Assembly (NCBI RefSeq): GCF_025149465.1
Contig: NZ_CP102275.1
Coordinates: forward strand, 682,001 to 746,000
Length of the DNA: 64,000 nucleotides
Direction: 5' to 3'
DNA from: Thomasclavelia spiroformis DSM 1552
GTDB taxonomy: Bacteria; Bacillota_I; Bacilli_A; Erysipelotrichales; Coprobacillaceae
Every line of letters begins with the position of its first letter. Positions within the stretch are counted from its first letter, which is position 1. The translations under genes were made by a program, and so were the position numbers. Under the pieces are notes generated by a model, which worked only from the letters and a program-made list of their open reading frames with translations, was not told the DNA's origin and did no database searches. Below, piece by piece: positions 17,196-25,041 of the stretch.

Positions 17196-18545
17196 ATGAA
17201 GAAAAATGATTATTTTTATGGAGAATGTATTGATTTAACTCATGATGGACAGGGTGTTGTAAAAGTTGATAATTTTACTTATTTTGTAAAAGGGATGTTA
17301 GTTGGTGAAACTGGGAAACTTAAAGTTATTAAGGTTTTAAAGAATTATGCGATTGCAAGATTAATTGAATTGGATAATGTATCTAAATATCGTGTAGAAC
17401 CAAAATGTCCAGTTTTTAAACCATGTGGAGGATGTCAATTACAACATTTGAATCAAGAAGGTCAAATGTTATTTAAGACTAAAAGAGTTAAAGATTGTTT
17501 AGAAAGAATTGGTAATTGTTTTGTTGAAGTTAATGATTGTTTAATGATGGAAGATCCATGGTATTATCGAAATAAAGTACAAATGCCAATAGGGGTAAAA
17601 GGAAATAGATTAGTTACAGGATTTTATAAACAAAAATCAAATGAAATAATTCCATGTGATGAATGTTTTATTCAAAATAAATTATCTAATCAAATTACTA
17701 AACGTGTAAAAGAGTTAATGGAAAAATACAAAATTTATCCTTATGATAAACTATCTCATCAAGGGAATATAAAGCATATCTTAACTAAACATGGTTATCA
17801 TAGTAATGAAATTATGTTAGTTTTAATTAGTTATCTTGATAAAATAAATAATGTAGATAAGTTAGTAGCTGAAATTACTAAAGAATTTTCGATGATTAAA
17901 ACAGTGATTCAAAATATTAATCATCGAATTGATAATGTTATTTTAGGAGATAAAGAAATTATATTATTTGGTGATGGTTTTATTTATGATAATTTATTGG
18001 ATAATAGATATAAAATATCACTTAAATCATTTTATCAAGTTAATCCCATTCAAGTAGAAAAGCTTTATCAAAAAGCAATTGAATTTGCTAAGTTATCAAA
18101 TGATGATGTTGTTTTAGATGCTTATTGTGGGATTGGAACAATTGCATTATCATTAGCTAAATATGTAAAGAAAGTATATGGTGTTGAAATTGTTGATACA
18201 GCAATAAATGATGCTAGAAATAACGCTAAGTTAAATAAGATAGAAAATGTTGAGTTTAAATGTGATGATGCTGGAAAATATATGATTGAATTAGTAAATA
18301 ATAATATCCATCTTGATGTTGTTTTTGTTGATCCACCAAGAAAAGGGTGTTCTAAAGAATTTTTAGATTATTTAATTCAAGCTAAACCAAGTAAAATAAT
18401 TTATATTTCTTGTGATGTTGCAACTCAAGCTAGAGATATAAAATATTTACAAGAATTTAATTATCAAGTAGACATGTGTCAACCAGTTGATATGTTCCCA
18501 CATACTACTCATATTGAAAATATAATTAGATTAGAGTGCATGTAA
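17196..18545 (+). CDS. RNA (uracil-5-)-methyltransferase, RlmCD/RumA type
   Basis: SAM-dependent enzyme methylating uridine C5, most likely in 23S rRNA. Order: N-terminal TRAM domain, Fe-S cluster Cys in CPVFKPCGGCQLQH (about 72-82), SAM site DAYCGIGTIAL, VFVDPPRKGCSKEF, and the catalytic Cys motif YISCDVATQARD. Length 449 is typical. The gene has AGGAGG at 17185-17190 directly behind the preceding terminator and is followed by its own terminator, so it is probably monocistronic. rlmCD versus rlmD cannot be decided from this alone, so no symbol is given. Confidence 0.92.
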   Translation: MKKNDYFYGECIDLTHDGQGVVKVDNFTYFVKGMLVGETGKLKVIKVLKNYAIARLIELDNVSKYRVEPKCPVFKPCGGCQLQHLNQEGQMLFKTKRVKDCLERIGNCFVEVNDCLMMEDPWYYRNKVQMPIGVKGNRLVTGFYKQKSNEIIPCDECFIQNKLSNQITKRVKELMEKYKIYPYDKLSHQGNIKHILTKHGYHSNEIMLVLISYLDKINNVDKLVAEITKEFSMIKTVIQNINHRIDNVILGDKEIILFGDGFIYDNLLDNRYKISLKSFYQVNPIQVEKLYQKAIEFAKLSNDDVVLDAYCGIGTIALSLAKYVKKVYGVEIVDTAINDARNNAKLNKIENVEFKCDDAGKYMIELVNNNIHLDVVFVDPPRKGCSKEFLDYLIQAKPSKIIYISCDVATQARDIKYLQEFNYQVDMCQPVDMFPHTTHIENIIRLECM

Positions 18546-18596
18546 ATCAACATTTTATCGTGATTGAAGATGATGAAATGTACTCTATAAGCAACA

Positions 18597-18624
18597 AAAT
18601 CAAGGCTAAAAACCTTGATTTTTT
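18597..18624 (+). terminator. Intrinsic terminator after the RNA methyltransferase gene
   Basis: AATCAAGG (18598-18605) pairs with CCTTGATT (18613-18620), followed by T4. Confidence 0.85.
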
Positions 18625-18943
18625 GTATTTCTTTATAAAGCTTATTAATTATTAGGGTATATGTATAAACATTTTTTGAAAGATTTGAAATTTATATCTA
18701 ATATCTTTTTTGTCATATAGATATCCATTTTGTACAGTGTTGCTAATGTACCAAAAGTAAGTCGACAATCATGTGGCAGATGTTTCATGTTTAATTTTTT
18801 CATGTGAAGAATTAATAAGAAGATAAAATCCCCTTTATTTATCGTGCTTTTTATTTAGTCATATAATTTATTATGAATTTTATACGAATTTAAACAAAAT
18901 TACAGTTTTTTGATCAAACTATTTCAGCTTTAAATGCTACGAA
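18625..18943. other. Intergenic stretch at the left edge of accessory island 1, no gene seen
   Basis: About 320 bases with stops in all frames and no RNA signature. It marks the change from core genes to the accessory block. Confidence 0.45.
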
Positions 18944-21214
18944 TTAATTTTCTACTTCCTCTTTAGCATTTTCAATAGAAGAAATTATTATCTCTAACCG
19001 TCTTATTAACATATATAAAGCTGATAATGATACCTTAAACGCAAAAAACATTGATTCTCCAGAAAGATACTCTCTTCCATGAATACATTCATTTCTAATA
19101 TTAAGAGAGTTGCCATTATACATATAATGATATATAAATAATAAATCAGGTACAACTTCAAAACTCTGCGTTTCAAGATAAGCCTTTTCTAATATTAATC
19201 GTAATATAGAACTTGGATCTTTACTTTGCATAAAATGCTTTTCATCTTCCTTAAATGGAAAAATATTATAGATTTTTCCTATTTTTTTTATCATAATCTC
19301 AATTATAGGAAATAATTGTGTTAAATGAGCAAGCTGTATATTTTCTTCATAATCTATTAACGTAAAATCATCTTTTAATTTTTTTCTTACAATATCATAA
19401 AGTTCTTTTGTTTTATTAAAGAAACCAAAAGCAAATCTCGCATTTTGTGTCATTCTTCTGTGGAATTCTTTAACATATTTTTCAGTATCCAAAATATTTA
19501 AAAACCTATAGCCATAATCTTTTTTTATATTTTCAATTATTGTAGTTGTTAATCTATCAACATCATGTTTTTCAATATCAAAAGTCAATTTTTCATCTAT
19601 AGGAAAAGTTTTATCTAAAGAAACTCTTCCTATCATAGCACTTAAAGGATTACTAGATATAGATTCCATGTTTTCTATATATTGTTGTGTTTGTGTAATA
19701 ACACATATATTTGCTAAAGAAAAAATATTATCTAATACATTTTTATTAAATAATTCTATTACTTCCGTCTTCATTTCAATCTCATGACTAATACTATGTA
19801 ATTTAGAAACACAAAAATCATAATATTGTTTTTCCCATAATTCTTGAATGCGTATCATTTCATATTTTATATATTCTTTATCAATATTAGAATTACCATT
19901 AAGTCTTGTTAAAAATAACATATAATTGATGAACAAGGAAGCACATAAAATATCATCAGAAGATATAATATATTTATCAAACATTTGACTATTTTTTACT
20001 AAATATTTATTATTGATTGATTTAACATTATCCTTATCTAATAAATATTTCGAATAACTGTAAACATCAGATATTGAATCCAAATAAGTAAAACAACTTT
20101 GATAATATTCCTTTAAAATTCTTCTTTGTTTTTTAGTTAAAGATATTTTATGTCTATCTAATGTCATAATTTCGTCTATGTCTTCAATCGACGAAAGTTT
20201 AAGGAAAAAATCTTTTACTTTTGAGCTATTTAAATATTTGTCTTCAACTAAACAAGCAATAATGTTAAATGATGAGTTATTATACTTTTCTACAACAGTA
20301 GTAGAGTTATCGTAATTTTCGATAAACAATCCAATGTGTCTATCTATTGTTGTTTTAGAAGGCATAGCTCCAAACATCATATATCTAACAGATTCAATTA
20401 TAAAATCAGAAATATCATTACTAAAGTATTTCTGCATTTCTTCTAATCTTTTCTCAGTCCATTGTTTATAATCAGGAGTAGTAGAATCACCTGAAGAGAA
20501 CAATGGGATAATTTTCCTGTCTTCGAAGCTAATACTCAACATATCTAAAATATAATTTTCTTCCCAAGTAATATTGGCTGGTCTTTCAATTCTATTAAAA
20601 TCAAATGCATCAACTTGGATTATTTTATCTCGACAACTTTCAAGAAAAGTTGTATCAGCAGGATAAACTATTGAATTAACGTTATCACTAAATATTCTTT
20701 TAATCTCGTCCAGTTTTTCTATGTTTATGGTTTCAAAAAATTGTAAAATTTCTTCCTCATACAAACACAAAGAATCCATTTTTAATAATAATGACATATT
20801 TTTTTGAGTTAAAAGACTTAGATCAAATAAATATTCCGTTTCATTATCTTGATTCTCAAGTTTTGTTATCCAAACAATCAAAAAAAGAGCTTTTGCAAAA
20901 TTACTACTGATTATATCATCGATTTCATTTTTATCTCTTTTACCTAAATAGAACTCAACAATAACGAATACTTCTTGAAATATAAAATTTTTAAACTCTA
21001 TATTATTAGGAGTACATTCAACAATATTGACAAAATAAGAAAAAACCTTAGATATAATTGGTTTTTGTGTTAAAAATTCATCGAAAGAATTAATATCATT
21101 TATTTCAAATTTTTCTTGAATTAAATCAACAAAAAATTGCCATTCTTTTGAACGATTAAGATAGTTTTCATAAAATTTTACACGTTCTTCATGGCCCAAA
21201 TAATTATTAGCCAT
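18944..21214 (-). CDS. Large DUF4209-type protein with RNxxxHG (HEPN-like) motif
   Basis: A 756-residue, largely helical, soluble protein with no signal peptide or membrane segment. Near the C-terminus it carries RNECIHG (R707 to G713), the RNxxxHG signature I associate with DUF4209; this also fits the R-x4-H ribonuclease motif of HEPN domains and is followed by a long helix, as in HEPN folds. The N-terminal ~650 residues are not recognised. The start at 21214 follows AAAAGGAGTGATG. It is a lone minus-strand gene between core rRNA-modification and mobile-element debris, the setting of many phage-defence genes. A toxic RNase or defence role is inference only; the motif is seen, the activity is not shown. 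Confidence 0.65.
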   Translation of the reverse strand: MANNYLGHEERVKFYENYLNRSKEWQFFVDLIQEKFEINDINSFDEFLTQKPIISKVFSYFVNIVECTPNNIEFKNFIFQEVFVIVEFYLGKRDKNEIDDIISSNFAKALFLIVWITKLENQDNETEYLFDLSLLTQKNMSLLLKMDSLCLYEEEILQFFETINIEKLDEIKRIFSDNVNSIVYPADTTFLESCRDKIIQVDAFDFNRIERPANITWEENYILDMLSISFEDRKIIPLFSSGDSTTPDYKQWTEKRLEEMQKYFSNDISDFIIESVRYMMFGAMPSKTTIDRHIGLFIENYDNSTTVVEKYNNSSFNIIACLVEDKYLNSSKVKDFFLKLSSIEDIDEIMTLDRHKISLTKKQRRILKEYYQSCFTYLDSISDVYSYSKYLLDKDNVKSINNKYLVKNSQMFDKYIISSDDILCASLFINYMLFLTRLNGNSNIDKEYIKYEMIRIQELWEKQYYDFCVSKLHSISHEIEMKTEVIELFNKNVLDNIFSLANICVITQTQQYIENMESISSNPLSAMIGRVSLDKTFPIDEKLTFDIEKHDVDRLTTTIIENIKKDYGYRFLNILDTEKYVKEFHRRMTQNARFAFGFFNKTKELYDIVRKKLKDDFTLIDYEENIQLAHLTQLFPIIEIMIKKIGKIYNIFPFKEDEKHFMQSKDPSSILRLILEKAYLETQSFEVVPDLLFIYHYMYNGNSLNIRNECIHGREYLSGESMFFAFKVSLSALYMLIRRLEIIISSIENAKEEVEN

Positions 21215-21425
21215 ATAGCATCACTCCTTTTGCTTATTTTTAATAATTATATCAAATCCAGAAAACTCAATATAGTATTTTGATAATTACAGTGCATTTT
21301 TTGATCTATTGATTTTCGATATTATATGATTATATAATTCAATTATAAGTTATTTGATTTCTGATTTGCTCAGAATCTCTCATTTAGGAAGTATAGATTA
21401 ATAAGTCATATTTTAAAAATTAGGA

Positions 21426-21472
21426 ATGAAACAACACAGGCGGATCCTTTTTGTCTTTTTTGTTGTTTCAAA
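21426..21472 (+). other. Hairpin upstream of the broken ArdC-like gene
   Basis: GAAACAACA at 21427-21435 can pair with TGTTGTTTC near 21461-21469, enclosing GCGGATCC and a T-rich stretch. It lies just upstream of the ATG at 21490 and could be a leader or terminator from the mobile element this gene came from. Confidence 0.4.
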
Positions 21473-22170
21473 AAAGAGGAACAATTATTATGGTAAAATC
21501 AAATTATTATACAACAGTTGCTCAAAAAAGAAAATATGGATAACATCCTTAATTATTTAGAACAAGGTGTAAGAGATACTTTTAATACTGAGCTATATAA
21601 AAAATATCTTCAAGTTTGCACTGTATATCTATACAGTTTAAACAACATTATTTTAATTCTTACACAATTCCCTCAAGCATATATTATTAAGTCGTATGTA
21701 GATTGGAAGAAGTGTAATGCTAGTGTAAAGAAAAATGGAAAAGAGAACAAGGTTATTATACCTAGACTTTATCAGATAGATAAGGAAGTTATTACTAAAG
21801 ATGAAGATGATAATGAAACTTTAGAAACTATAACTATTGATCGCTGTGGATTTACAATAGGATATGTTTTTGATATTACTCAAACAACATTAGAGAAAAC
21901 TCCTACACTAGCACAGGAATTAACTGCTGATTCAAATTATATACAAGATATATTAGACAATTTAATCTTGTCTGATAAAACCATTAAATATAATGAAAAA
22001 TTAGCAAACACTCAGGTAACCGGATATTATGATCCTAAGAACAATACTATCTGTTTAAGAACTGATATGGCATCAAGCTAAAAGTTGAAAACACTAATTC
22101 ACGAATCAGCACACAGACTTCTTCACAAGAATATACATGATTGGATTGTCAACACTTTTTTGGACAATTT

Positions 22171-22965
22171 CTATGAGAACATCCTAAATTCAACTGGTGT
22201 CTTATAGCCAAGTGAACCATGTATCCTCACATTATTATACCAGTTTACATAATCAAATAATTCTAGTTCCAGTTCTTCAAAACTTTCAAACCTTTTATTA
22301 AATGCAAACTCTGTTTTTATAATTTTATATGTTGCTTCAGCAACTGCATTATCATACGGACATCCTTTAGCACTTAATGACCTGTTTATATTAAATGCCT
22401 TTAATGCATTTTCAATATCTTCATTTTTGAATTCATTTCCTCGATCACTGTGAAACAAATCTATTTTTCGTAAATCATATTTTATTGAATAGAGTGCTTT
22501 TTCTACTAACTTGGCATTTTTATTCTTACTGGCTGCATATCCTACAATCTCTCTGTTATATAGATCTAACATAAGACATATATAATTCCATTTTCCATCC
22601 ACATTAACATACGTCAGATCACTAACTACTACCTTCATTCTCTCTTTTTGATTAAAATTACGATTGAGTCTATTTTCTATATTATCATTATTACATGCTG
22701 CGTGATGTACTTTATACTGTTTAACTGTATAGCTTGATACTAAGCCATTTTCCTGCATAATACGTCTAATTCTTCTTTTACTGACAATATGGCCCAGTTT
22801 AGCCAATTCTATTTTAATCTTTCTTGAACCATAGTTGTTTCGACTGTTTTTAAATATTTCTTTTACTAAAGCAGTCAGATAATGATCATTGGATTTTTTC
22901 TTATTTAATTTATTATTACGATTATAATATAATGATGATCTAGGTATATCTAGTAATTTACACAT
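22171..22965 (-). CDS. IS3-family transposase OrfB (DDE integrase)
   Basis: Catalytic half of the transposase. The rve-type DDE core is visible: D in SDLTYV, D in HSDRGNEF and E in NAVAEATYK, with 35 residues between the second Asp and the Glu, the IS3 spacing. An HTH_21-like N-terminus precedes it (LDIPRSSLYY). The coding frame is open upstream of the first ATG (ADKYPVSAMCKLLD) as far as the orfA stop, so it is normally made as an OrfAB fusion by a -1 shift near the A-run at the end of orfA. It looks intact. Confidence 0.9.
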   Translation of the reverse strand: MCKLLDIPRSSLYYNRNNKLNKKKSNDHYLTALVKEIFKNSRNNYGSRKIKIELAKLGHIVSKRRIRRIMQENGLVSSYTVKQYKVHHAACNNDNIENRLNRNFNQKERMKVVVSDLTYVNVDGKWNYICLMLDLYNREIVGYAASKNKNAKLVEKALYSIKYDLRKIDLFHSDRGNEFKNEDIENALKAFNINRSLSAKGCPYDNAVAEATYKIIKTEFAFNKRFESFEELELELFDYVNWYNNVRIHGSLGYKTPVEFRMFS

Positions 22966-23006
22966 TGCGCTGACCGGATATTTATCTGCATTGGAAATGA
23001 TAACAT

Positions 23007-23288
23007 TTATTTTCGTCCCATGATCAGCGCTGCTTGCTTTAAAATATCATTTTCCATCTTCAGTCGCTGATTTTCCTTGCGGAGTCTGATTAGTTCTTTT
23101 TCTTCATCACTGCGGTTGTCCTCGACATGGAACGAACCAGTATTATTGTACTTTTTGATCCATGAAGATAAAGCAGATGGAGTCAGTTCATATTCACGAA
23201 CCAGCTCAGCTCTTGGTTTTCCGCTGTTGTATAATTCGACCATTTTCTGTTTAAATTCATCACTGTAAGTTCTTCTTTCTCTTGCCAT
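23007..23288 (-). CDS. IS3-family OrfA (HTH and leucine zipper)
   Basis: The 93-residue DNA-binding half: HTH (YSDEFKQKMVELYNSGKP) followed by a coiled-coil segment (ELIRLRKENQRLKMEND) used for multimerisation. It ends MGRK stop, with CGAAAATAA at the overlap where a -1 frameshift would join it to orfB. Confidence 0.88.
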   Translation of the reverse strand: MARERRTYSDEFKQKMVELYNSGKPRAELVREYELTPSALSSWIKKYNNTGSFHVEDNRSDEEKELIRLRKENQRLKMENDILKQAALIMGRK

Positions 23289-23568
23289 TTCAGATTACCT
23301 CATTTCTTGATTTTCTATTGTAACAGTTCTCTTAAAAACTGTCCAATTTAGTGTAACCTATCCAGATATTAATAGAAGAAAGGCTGAGGTAGAAGCCGAG
23401 TCTTATGCGTATGTAGTTTCGTATCAACTTGGTCTTGATACCTTAAGTTATTCATTTGGATATGTAGCATCATATTCAAATGGAAAACTACAAACATTGA
23501 ATACTAGTCTTGAGCGTATTAAAAATACTAGCCAAGCTATCCTAAGCTGGATAATCAGCGCCTTTTAA

Positions 23569-23833
23569 TTGAAAGAGCATTCTTTAGATCAAAGATCTTA
23601 ATATGTTTTTTTATGAATTACCTAAGAAATTGATTTGAGTATATCATTTTCTATTAGCCTTAGGCTTTTGGCTAATTAGATAATAAAGTAGACCACTTAC
23701 TTCTTAACTGTAGGATTTTTATAGGGATTACTGCGCCATTTTTAATACGTATTATTCTACTAATACTTATATAAAACACATTAATAAAATAATATGTATT
23801 AAAAATATTATTGCGTAAAAGAAGATGAATTTA
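23569..23833. other. Intergenic stretch with a hairpin, no gene seen
   Basis: Downstream of the broken ArdC-like gene. Around 23655-23680 ATTAGCC can pair with GGCTAAT, a terminator-like stem without a long T run. The long inverted repeat at 23738-23806 is listed separately. Confidence 0.4.
23738..23806. repeat. Long inverted repeat (19-bp arms, 31-base spacer)
   Basis: Arm 23738-23756 (ATTTTTAATACGTATTATT) and arm 23788-23806 are reverse complements with one mismatch. It lies directly before two recombinase-like gene fragments. It could be a recombinase site, an oriT-like structure or the end of a lost element; no function is shown. Confidence 0.5.
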
Positions 23834-23941
23834 ATGGCAAGAAAACAAAACATAAAATTCCTAATGAAGCAAGAACTAAATAAGATGCAAGCATTTGGAA
23901 AATCGAAATATCAGGATCAATTAATTCTTTATATTTTTTGA
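23834..23941 (+). pseudogene. 35-codon fragment resembling the N-terminus of a plasmid-type tyrosine recombinase
   Basis: Short frame MARKQNIKFLMKQELNKM then FGKSKYQDQLI, ending in TGA. The FGxSKxxD pattern near the N-terminus resembles integrase-like proteins of conjugative elements as I recall them, but the fragment is too short to be certain. It stops where the decayed RIT remnant begins. Confidence 0.35.
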
Positions 23942-24425
23942 TGTATAGTACACTAAATAACTAATGCTAACCTGTTTATAAGGAGGATAGCATTATGAAT
24001 AATTTAGCTTATTTATCTAAAGAACGCTTAGCTTTCTTGAGGAAAAATCAATATAAAGAATCAACACTAGCTAAGTACAGAAGAGGGTTAAATGTTTTAA
24101 AATGTTTTTGTGAAAATCAAGTCAGTGAGGAATATACTCTAGAATTGAGAAATGCATACGTTGCTGATATTTATATCAATGGTCATTTTAGTACGCATCG
24201 ATATCTTGATAGAGGTCGTCTAACACGATTTCTAAACTTTTAGTTGGAACATGATTATTTCGATTATCTATTAAAAAGGGGAAAAAATATGATGATGATA
24301 TAATAAGATTTCAAGGCGAATATGAGGCATATAAAAATTATATATGACAGGAATATCAAAGAATTGACCAAACATAATTATAGTTATTATGCTAATATTT
24401 TCTAGCATCAAATTTAGGAAATTTG
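23942..24425 (+). pseudogene. Decayed ritA (tyrosine recombinase) remnant, first copy
   Basis: From the ATG at 23995 the frame reads MNNLAYLSKERLAFLRKN to RLTRFLNF and stops at 24243. DNA similarity to the second copy at 47014-47420 continues through about 24420 with small indels. The ribosome site and leader (AAGGAGGATAGCATT) also match, as does part of the element edge (GTATAGTA at 23944-23951). Only the N-terminal SAM-like core-binding part of the recombinase remains; the catalytic domain, RitB and RitC are absent. So an older RIT copy once sat here. Confidence 0.8.
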
Positions 24426-24777
24426 AACATTCTTACAATATCTTACACTGTTCTCCCATAGTGGATGAATACTTACCCTTTTAATATATCTACCACAAAG
24501 GAAAAATTTATCATATCATTTAACTGTCTTTAAAAATTATTCTTTGAAATTAAGATATCATATAATTCTGTATGTTGATTAAAATTTAATCCTAGTTGTT
24601 TATCTGATTTTATCATTTGCATCATTTTTTTTGTATATGTATTATTAAATTGTATACACATAATTTTACATTCTGGATATTTTTTGATATTGCTATCCCT
24701 GTTATTGTCTATTTTGATGTAAAAAAAGCATATAAAAAATATGAAAGTGACAACTTATGAATTTAATTTTTAAATCG
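24426..24777. other. Intergenic stretch with a possible minus-strand gene remnant
   Basis: No intact gene. On the minus strand about 24530-24700 reads as an open tail, KKYPECKIMCIQFNN then LNFNQHTELYDILISK and a stop, with no clear start. It may be the C-terminus of a lost gene; family not recognised. Confidence 0.3.
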
Positions 24778-24816
24778 TCATCTGCACATTTGTATATATT
24801 GTGCAGATGATTTTTT
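24778..24816 (+). terminator. Strong intrinsic terminator
   Basis: TCATCTGCACA (24778-24788) pairs with TGTGCAGATGA (24800-24810), then T6. There is no intact plus-strand gene directly upstream, so it probably ended a lost transcript of the island. Confidence 0.8.
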
Positions 24817-24926
24817 ATAAGTACATTTTAATTTATCAAATGTCAGGATTTTTTTAGATTTAAACAAGATTTAATTATATTAATATGTTATTTATAATAA
24901 AATGATTTTTTAAAAGTAAAATAAAG

Positions 24927-24985
24927 TATAATTAAGATATATTTATTAGTTGCAACTGCTAGTTGCGCTAATTGTCTAGTTAAAT
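24927..24985 (+). promoter_or_regulatory. Promoter with repeated operator-like sites before the XRE regulator
   Basis: TATAAT at 24927-24932 is followed by direct repeats TAGTTGC at 24947-24953 and 24960-24966 (13-bp period) and a related TAGTTAA at 24977, with the small palindrome GTTGCAAC between. Repeats just downstream of the -10 suggest autorepression by the XRE protein. Confidence 0.45.
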
Positions 24986-25041
24986 TGGTAGTAAGTAACT
25001 AGAAAATGGGCTATATTTATTTTGTAAATAGATTGGAGGTA

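Follow-up and report, generated by a model that had tools for sequence, protein, structure and literature searches.

A lone gene in the genome of Thomasclavelia spiroformis DSM 1552, which encodes a large protein with the residues RNECIHG near its C-terminus, raises the question of whether it is a defence gene, as an initial annotation of the surrounding DNA had proposed. The gene is situated in a stretch of 64,000 nucleotides (contig NZ_CP102275.1, positions 682,001 to 746,000), referred to in the following as the window. On the evidence presented below, it is probably a defence gene, and one of a kind that has not been described.

The gene and its chromosomal site

The reading frame comprises 756 codons from an ATG start and is free of internal stops (list of open reading frames and sequence), and aaaaGGAGTgatgctat, which reads as a good ribosome-binding site, stands upstream of this ATG on the same strand. 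Its extent (18944-21214), its product of 756 residues and the placing of RNECIHG, with R707 and H712, are exactly as initially annotated. It had also been called isolated and reversed relative to its neighbours, and indeed its strand is opposite to that of rlmD and of the ArdC-like ORF, both of which are on the plus strand (Table 1). No defence partner adjoins the gene, and the 2.53-Mb genome contains no second member of the family. Its GC content amounts to 23-25%, compared with 24-33% nearby, such that composition does not set it apart.

Concerning the site, the rlmD gene of the left flank forms the end of a ligA-gatCAB-rlmD block. Matches of the rlmD type are present in all 43 genomes of the family, and the DNA following rlmD differs from species to species among the six sister species where it is readable. 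Because the 42 other genomes of the family all lack the window gene by direct search and the DNA after rlmD differs, the gene is regarded as accessory and as situated at a variable spot. Seen across the genus, the entire interval after rlmD (18546-25005) is variable, each sister species read possessing other genes there (L032-L037).

On its other side, the window gene is divergent from an ArdC-like antirestriction gene. The antirestriction debris reported at this place was recovered: PF08401 identifies an ArdC-like pseudogene with an early stop, which is broken by an insertion sequence of the IS3/IS150 type containing transposase ORFs at 22171-22965 and 23007-23288. As a whole, the pseudogene covers 21518-23570, interrupted by the early stop and then split by the insertion sequence, and the sequence beyond the latter, from about 23360 onwards, resembles its continuation. 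For the recombinase debris postulated at 23995-24243 (82 aa), no integrase match was found in Pfam, and this part of the annotation was not confirmed. A search for att-like direct repeats around the window gene yielded AT-rich chance repeats only. The word island, if applied to this site, thus refers to the ArdC and IS remnants and to the comparison with the sister species.

Table 1. Features of the window gene and its flanks (positions are those of the window)
Feature	Position	Strand	Basis
756-residue solenoid-HEPN protein, predicted defence ribonuclease	18944..21214	(-)	intact ORF, 14 full-length relatives, AlphaFold2 mean pLDDT 87.3
RNECIHG, predicted R-N-x3-H catalytic motif (R707, H712)	residues 707-713 = 19076..19096	(-)	sequence
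Predicted alpha-solenoid with small beta insert (228-246), putative sensor/regulatory part	residues 1-540 = 19595..21214	(-)	model
Predicted HEPN bundle, DUF4209-like	residues 602-756 = 18947..19411	(-)	domain model, structural matches, hhalign
rlmD-type methyltransferase gene, left flank	17196..18545	(+)	DNA beyond differs between sister species
N-terminal fragment of ArdC-like antirestriction gene, mobile-element remnant	21518..22081	(+)	PF08401, E 3e-6; stop at 22081
IS3/IS150-type insertion sequence within the ArdC remnant, ends approximate	22148..23358	(-)	transposase ORFs and end sequences read by eye

Predicted fold and relation to DUF4209

AlphaFold2, supplied with an alignment of 15 rows, modelled the full-length protein with a mean pLDDT of 87.3. 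Residues 1-540 form a long helical array, interrupted by the one small beta insert, and its nearest folds, which are weak matches, are repeats of the HEAT/ARM/TPR type, e.g., in importins, the PP2A A-subunit, and Ski3. Residues 545-756, modelled alone, are helical as well (pLDDT 87, pTM 0.84). A glutaredoxin reading, suggested by chance-type PDB sequence matches, was dropped because the predicted model is helical; a further PDB sequence search gave no match.

Neither the full model nor the C-terminal domain found a significant Foldseek match in the PDB or among viral models. When Foldseek's top 1000 chains were realigned with the C-terminal domain (VIA-align), seven of the nine best chains were HEPN domains, with EiCsm6 at the top (Z 6.4, 3.8 Å, 120 residues) and further matches among HEPN-MNT toxin structures (Z 5.2-5.6), Csm6' (5.2), and sacsin (5.1); unrelated bundles reach Z 5.8, and since these values lie below the level safe for helical bundles, the fold taken by itself is suggestive. 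The expectation of the initial annotation, an HEPN-like bundle around R707-H712, is nevertheless borne out insofar as a helical bundle is predicted there and its best structural matches are HEPN domains. At the level of residues, R707 N708 E709 C710 I711 H712 conforms to R-x4-6-H with a polar residue after R. The ends of the alignments place R707 near residue 374 of EiCsm6, the catalytic residues of which are R372/N373/H377 (PMC7101355), and near residue 102 of the HEPN toxin, for which one entry is an R102A mutant; as read from these range ends only, the catalytic motif is apparently in register with the HEPN matches. The RN-x3-H form is also that of the HEPN-MNT toxin SO_3166, whose toxicity is lost on changing R or H (PMC4621449). 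The HEPN motif is present in the C-terminal domain, and an HEPN fold is probable.

The designation of the protein as DUF4209-type holds in part. It is favoured by profile-profile comparison, as hhalign of the family against three DUF4209 proteins gave P 1.6e-5 and a probability of 79%, collinear and with the motif in register, and RN...HG is invariant in the three proteins compared. The Pfam model (PF13910), on the other hand, matches residues 663-713 of the window protein with 13.1 bits and the C-terminal 151 residues alone with 15.0 bits, in both cases below the cut-off of 22.3 bits; matches at E<=0.1 are found in three of the 15 members, the best E being 0.057. By sequence, the window protein is DUF4209-like, yet it is not filed as a member, the Pfam cut-off having been failed. 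The same Pfam search matched nothing in this genome or in any of the 14 control genomes. A classification of 2013 placed DUF4209, under the name C6orf70, among the catalytic HEPN families, with TPR fusions in some members and with members occurring in R-M related operons (PMC3710099), so that its HEPN identity and its link to restriction operons are not new. What the window family shares with DUF4209/C6orf70 (ERMARD) is the C-terminal helical domain with (I/L)RNxxxHG in a collinear profile alignment, whereas the DUF4209 proteins encountered (L041, L042) are about 550 residues long as against about 756, and the window family possesses its own conserved N-terminal solenoid of 540 residues.

PADLOC, NCBIfam, PHROGs, and PDB sequences gave nothing useful for the window protein, and for all 15 members 0 families of PADLOC-DB 2.0.0 matched at E<=0.1; in the copies of Pfam, NCBIfam, PHROGs, and PADLOC searched, it is either missing or scores too low to pass. 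No description of this family was found in the open-access literature searched.

Relatives and their neighbourhoods

Direct protein searches found no homologue in the 42 other genomes of the family or in about 390 genomes of the class and phylum, nor in plasmids, phages, viral contigs, or, by peptide patterns, genome contigs. Relatives were retrieved by an exact DNA pattern for RNECIHG preceded by a hydrophobic residue, which was applied to 84,980 genomes and followed by tblastn. Among the 31 loci obtained, 15 are true relatives (E from 4e-25, a fragment at a contig edge, to 2e-169), and the remaining loci carry the seven residues by chance. Pattern matches in the viral_contigs set turned out not to be relatives (tblastn), as did 73 alignment-based candidates; two further homologues used as queries had no match in plasmids or phages.

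The hosts are Streptococcus zalophi, S. peroris, S. australis, three Anaerococcus, Abiotrophia, several Lachnospiraceae and other Clostridia, Pseudoflavonifractor, and a MAG labelled as a cyanobacterium. Fourteen of the 15 relatives are readable over their full length, and their identity to the window protein is 28-37%; judged by sequence comparison, these full-length relatives, together with a dN/dS of about 0.21 between close Anaerococcus copies, mark the window ORF as more than a chance frame, and the latter value indicates purifying selection. RNECIHG is present in all relatives, but since they were retrieved through this exact motif, its constancy among the aligned sequences is in part a circular result. 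Profile searches independent of the motif, extending over 546 genomes, recovered only known members and none without the motif: 3 of 147 Streptococcus genomes, 2 of 299 in the family of An181, and 2 of 100 in the family of Anaerococcus. The window's own family and phylum sample yielded 1 of 43 and 1 of 392 genomes, respectively. The family is sporadic, occurring in 0.7-2% of the species searched. Since the S. zalophi copy is far closer to Anaerococcus (65% identity) than to S. peroris (34%), horizontal transfer between genera is indicated.

Concerning the neighbourhoods, two streptococcal copies are associated with type I restriction genes. In S. peroris, hsdR, the HEPN gene, hsdS, the gene of a HAD protein (PDC-S34), a KAP NTPase gene, and hsdM follow each other on one strand, the HEPN gene being separated from its neighbours by 51 and 12 bp; in S. 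australis, where the HEPN gene is split by the contig end, it is followed by hsdS, AriAB (PARIS), and hsdM. Both are type I R-M operons with cargo among hsdR, hsdS, and hsdM (L112 1434-13328, L107 1791-7143). In a Lachnospiraceae genome (L109 2748-10302), the HEPN gene follows 6 bp behind the genes of DdmD (E 1.6e-64 to PDB 9ix4) and DdmE (E 2.7e-17 to 9iw3), which constitute DdmDE, a DNA-targeting anti-plasmid system, and in a second one (L115 781-4885) it is preceded by a DdmE of 89% identity. A published description of a third component in DdmDE operons was not found in the open-access literature. In UBA2855, the HEPN gene stands beside GajA and GajB of Gabija (3e-247 and 9e-164) on the opposite strand, and in UBA1422 it lies in a conjugative element (relaxase, coupling protein) carrying AbiEi and AbiEii.

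Other copies are linked to integrative elements. In A. jeddahensis, Abiotrophia, and S. zalophi, the HEPN gene immediately follows guaA, where IMEs are known to integrate (PMC12479173), and in the first of these an integrase and a VapE-type gene follow. The A. lactolyticus copy is flanked by two integrase genes, that of An44 lies between a tRNA cluster and an integrase, and that of An181 between two integrase-bearing elements. Near the copies of A. vaginalis, RGIG6514, and a short Acetatifactor contig, no clear defence or integrase gene was seen. A control set of 131 proteins, drawn from 12 regions elsewhere in these genomes, was compared with PADLOC; its matches at E<=1e-40 were of only three kinds (a cysteine desulfurase, an ATPase scored as mad3, and a SNF2 helicase), all of which resemble housekeeping relatives and not defence systems. 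The contrast with the homologue neighbourhoods is clear, albeit for a small sample and with homologue neighbours picked by eye. The neighbourhood survey suggested along with the initial annotation finds homologues that are no core genes: they occur in few genomes, have spread horizontally, and are associated with mobile elements and defence loci.

Proposed role and alternatives

We consider it fairly likely that the window gene encodes a horizontally transferred HEPN ribonuclease effector, directed against viruses or mobile elements and restrained by a solenoid sensor. The solenoid (residues 1-540) would sense a signal of the invader or a partner protein and hold the C-terminal domain inactive; residues 602-756 would constitute a DUF4209-like, metal-independent HEPN endoribonuclease which, once released, cuts RNA, probably in the form of a dimer whose interface brings together R707 and H712 from both subunits. 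This cutting would stop translation, and the infected cell would stall or die (abortive infection). The gene, its family, the predicted fold, the horizontal spread, and the defence and mobile-element context are observed here, whereas RNase activity, dimerisation, sensing, and the abortive outcome are inferred. The protein may act alone on mobile elements, as in the window, or attached to type I restriction or DdmDE, and within those operons it could be a second line once the DNA-targeting stage fails, as PrrC is for EcoprrI (PMC3710099). More tentatively, and with less than even confidence, the family may be an undescribed defence family and a portable module, in which a sensor of about 540 residues with alpha-solenoid fold is joined to a DUF4209-like HEPN RNase and employed either alone on mobile elements or as the RNA-cutting second stage of DNA-targeting systems, namely between hsdR and hsdS of type I restriction operons, a niche like that of PrrC, and in third place in DdmDE plasmid defence. 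The initial proposal, still a prediction, is supported in part and considerably strengthened by these comparisons. Of the initial phrase 'undescribed single-gene defence system', the first part agrees with the fact that no library searched recognises the family and with the defence and mobile context; 'single-gene' fits the window copy and several relatives but fails for the copies in type I R-M and DdmDE operons.

These operons could also be taken to indicate a guard. PrrC acts as such for EcoprrI (PMC3710099), and a protein of this kind would be silenced by its R-M or DdmDE partner and unleashed when an invader disables the latter, the window copy being either an orphan or the guard of a distant restriction system. 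The two streptococcal type I R-M operons, with the HEPN gene between hsdR and hsdS in S. peroris, are the kind of setting in which PrrC occurs (PMC3710099), and the third place in the DdmDE operons would suit a guard as well; nonetheless, for about half of the copies, the window's included, the surrounding 10 kb or so contain neither R-M nor DdmDE genes, and the window protein is without the ABC ATPase domain of PrrC, and we regard this role as unlikely. An addiction or maintenance toxin of mobile elements, of the toxin-antitoxin type and unconnected with defence, appears quite improbable: many copies do reside on integrative elements, and HEPN toxins of toxin-antitoxin pairs are known (PMC4621449), but the relatives are not accompanied by a small partner gene that recurs from copy to copy, a regulatory part of 540 residues would be unusual for such a toxin, and some relatives are embedded in R-M and DdmDE operons.

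The predicted catalysis itself might be doubted, in that the C-terminal bundle could be non-catalytic (RNA-binding or structural) and the protein a scaffold. The missing significant Foldseek match, the moderate Z-scores, and the existence of HEPN proteins without RNase activity (PMC3710099) are compatible with this, whereas none of the residues R, N, and H has been lost and the motif-independent profile searches yielded no member without the motif, and we hold a scaffold to be very improbable. Least credible of all is a role as accessory RNase in producing or trimming the guides of an Argonaute-type protein. HEPN companions of the Alteromonas pAgo are reported to process guides (PMC12904381), and DdmE, in two of whose operons the HEPN gene is third, is an Argonaute relative; no Argonaute gene is visible near 13 of the 15 relatives or near the window copy, however, and guide processing fits the DdmDE copies only and therefore cannot explain the others.

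For the favoured reading, a restrained HEPN effector, several known systems offer comparison. With the PrrC/RloC anticodon nucleases, the window family shares the (here predicted) HEPN RNase, a large N-terminal regulatory part, and, in S. peroris, the position between hsdR and hsdS; it differs by a solenoid in the model, by the location of most copies outside R-M operons, and by the lack of any ABC ATPase or P-loop family in Pfam. Membership in PrrC was ruled out, as the window protein without an ATPase is no PrrC/RloC. The Csm6/Csx1 CRISPR ribonucleases provide the best structural matches of the C-terminal domain and share the R-N-x3-H motif, whereas the window protein has no CARF domain in the model, and no CRISPR genes were noticed nearby. 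Tha, which is carried by prophages (PMC11087260), and DS-11 (PMC13092281) resemble it as single proteins with an HEPN effector (predicted in our case); the CBS domain of DS-11 is absent from the window protein, and all 15 members are unmatched in PADLOC.

Across Streptococcus, Anaerococcus, Abiotrophia, and gut Clostridia, relatives recur at defence or mobile loci. The protein, if active, would represent an HEPN effector whose regulatory region is of a new kind, and it would, in the manner of PrrC, tie RNA-cutting abortive infection to DdmDE and to type I restriction. It would further provide a bacterial relative for the RNase chemistry predicted for the DUF4209/C6orf70 family, human ERMARD included. 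True DUF4209 proteins of about 550 residues exist in other genomes of the class, where they adjoin an ORF for an HTH regulator (L040/L041 115-1791, L042 34-1785); matches to DUF4209 are rare, occurring in 8 of the 392 genomes of the phylum sample.
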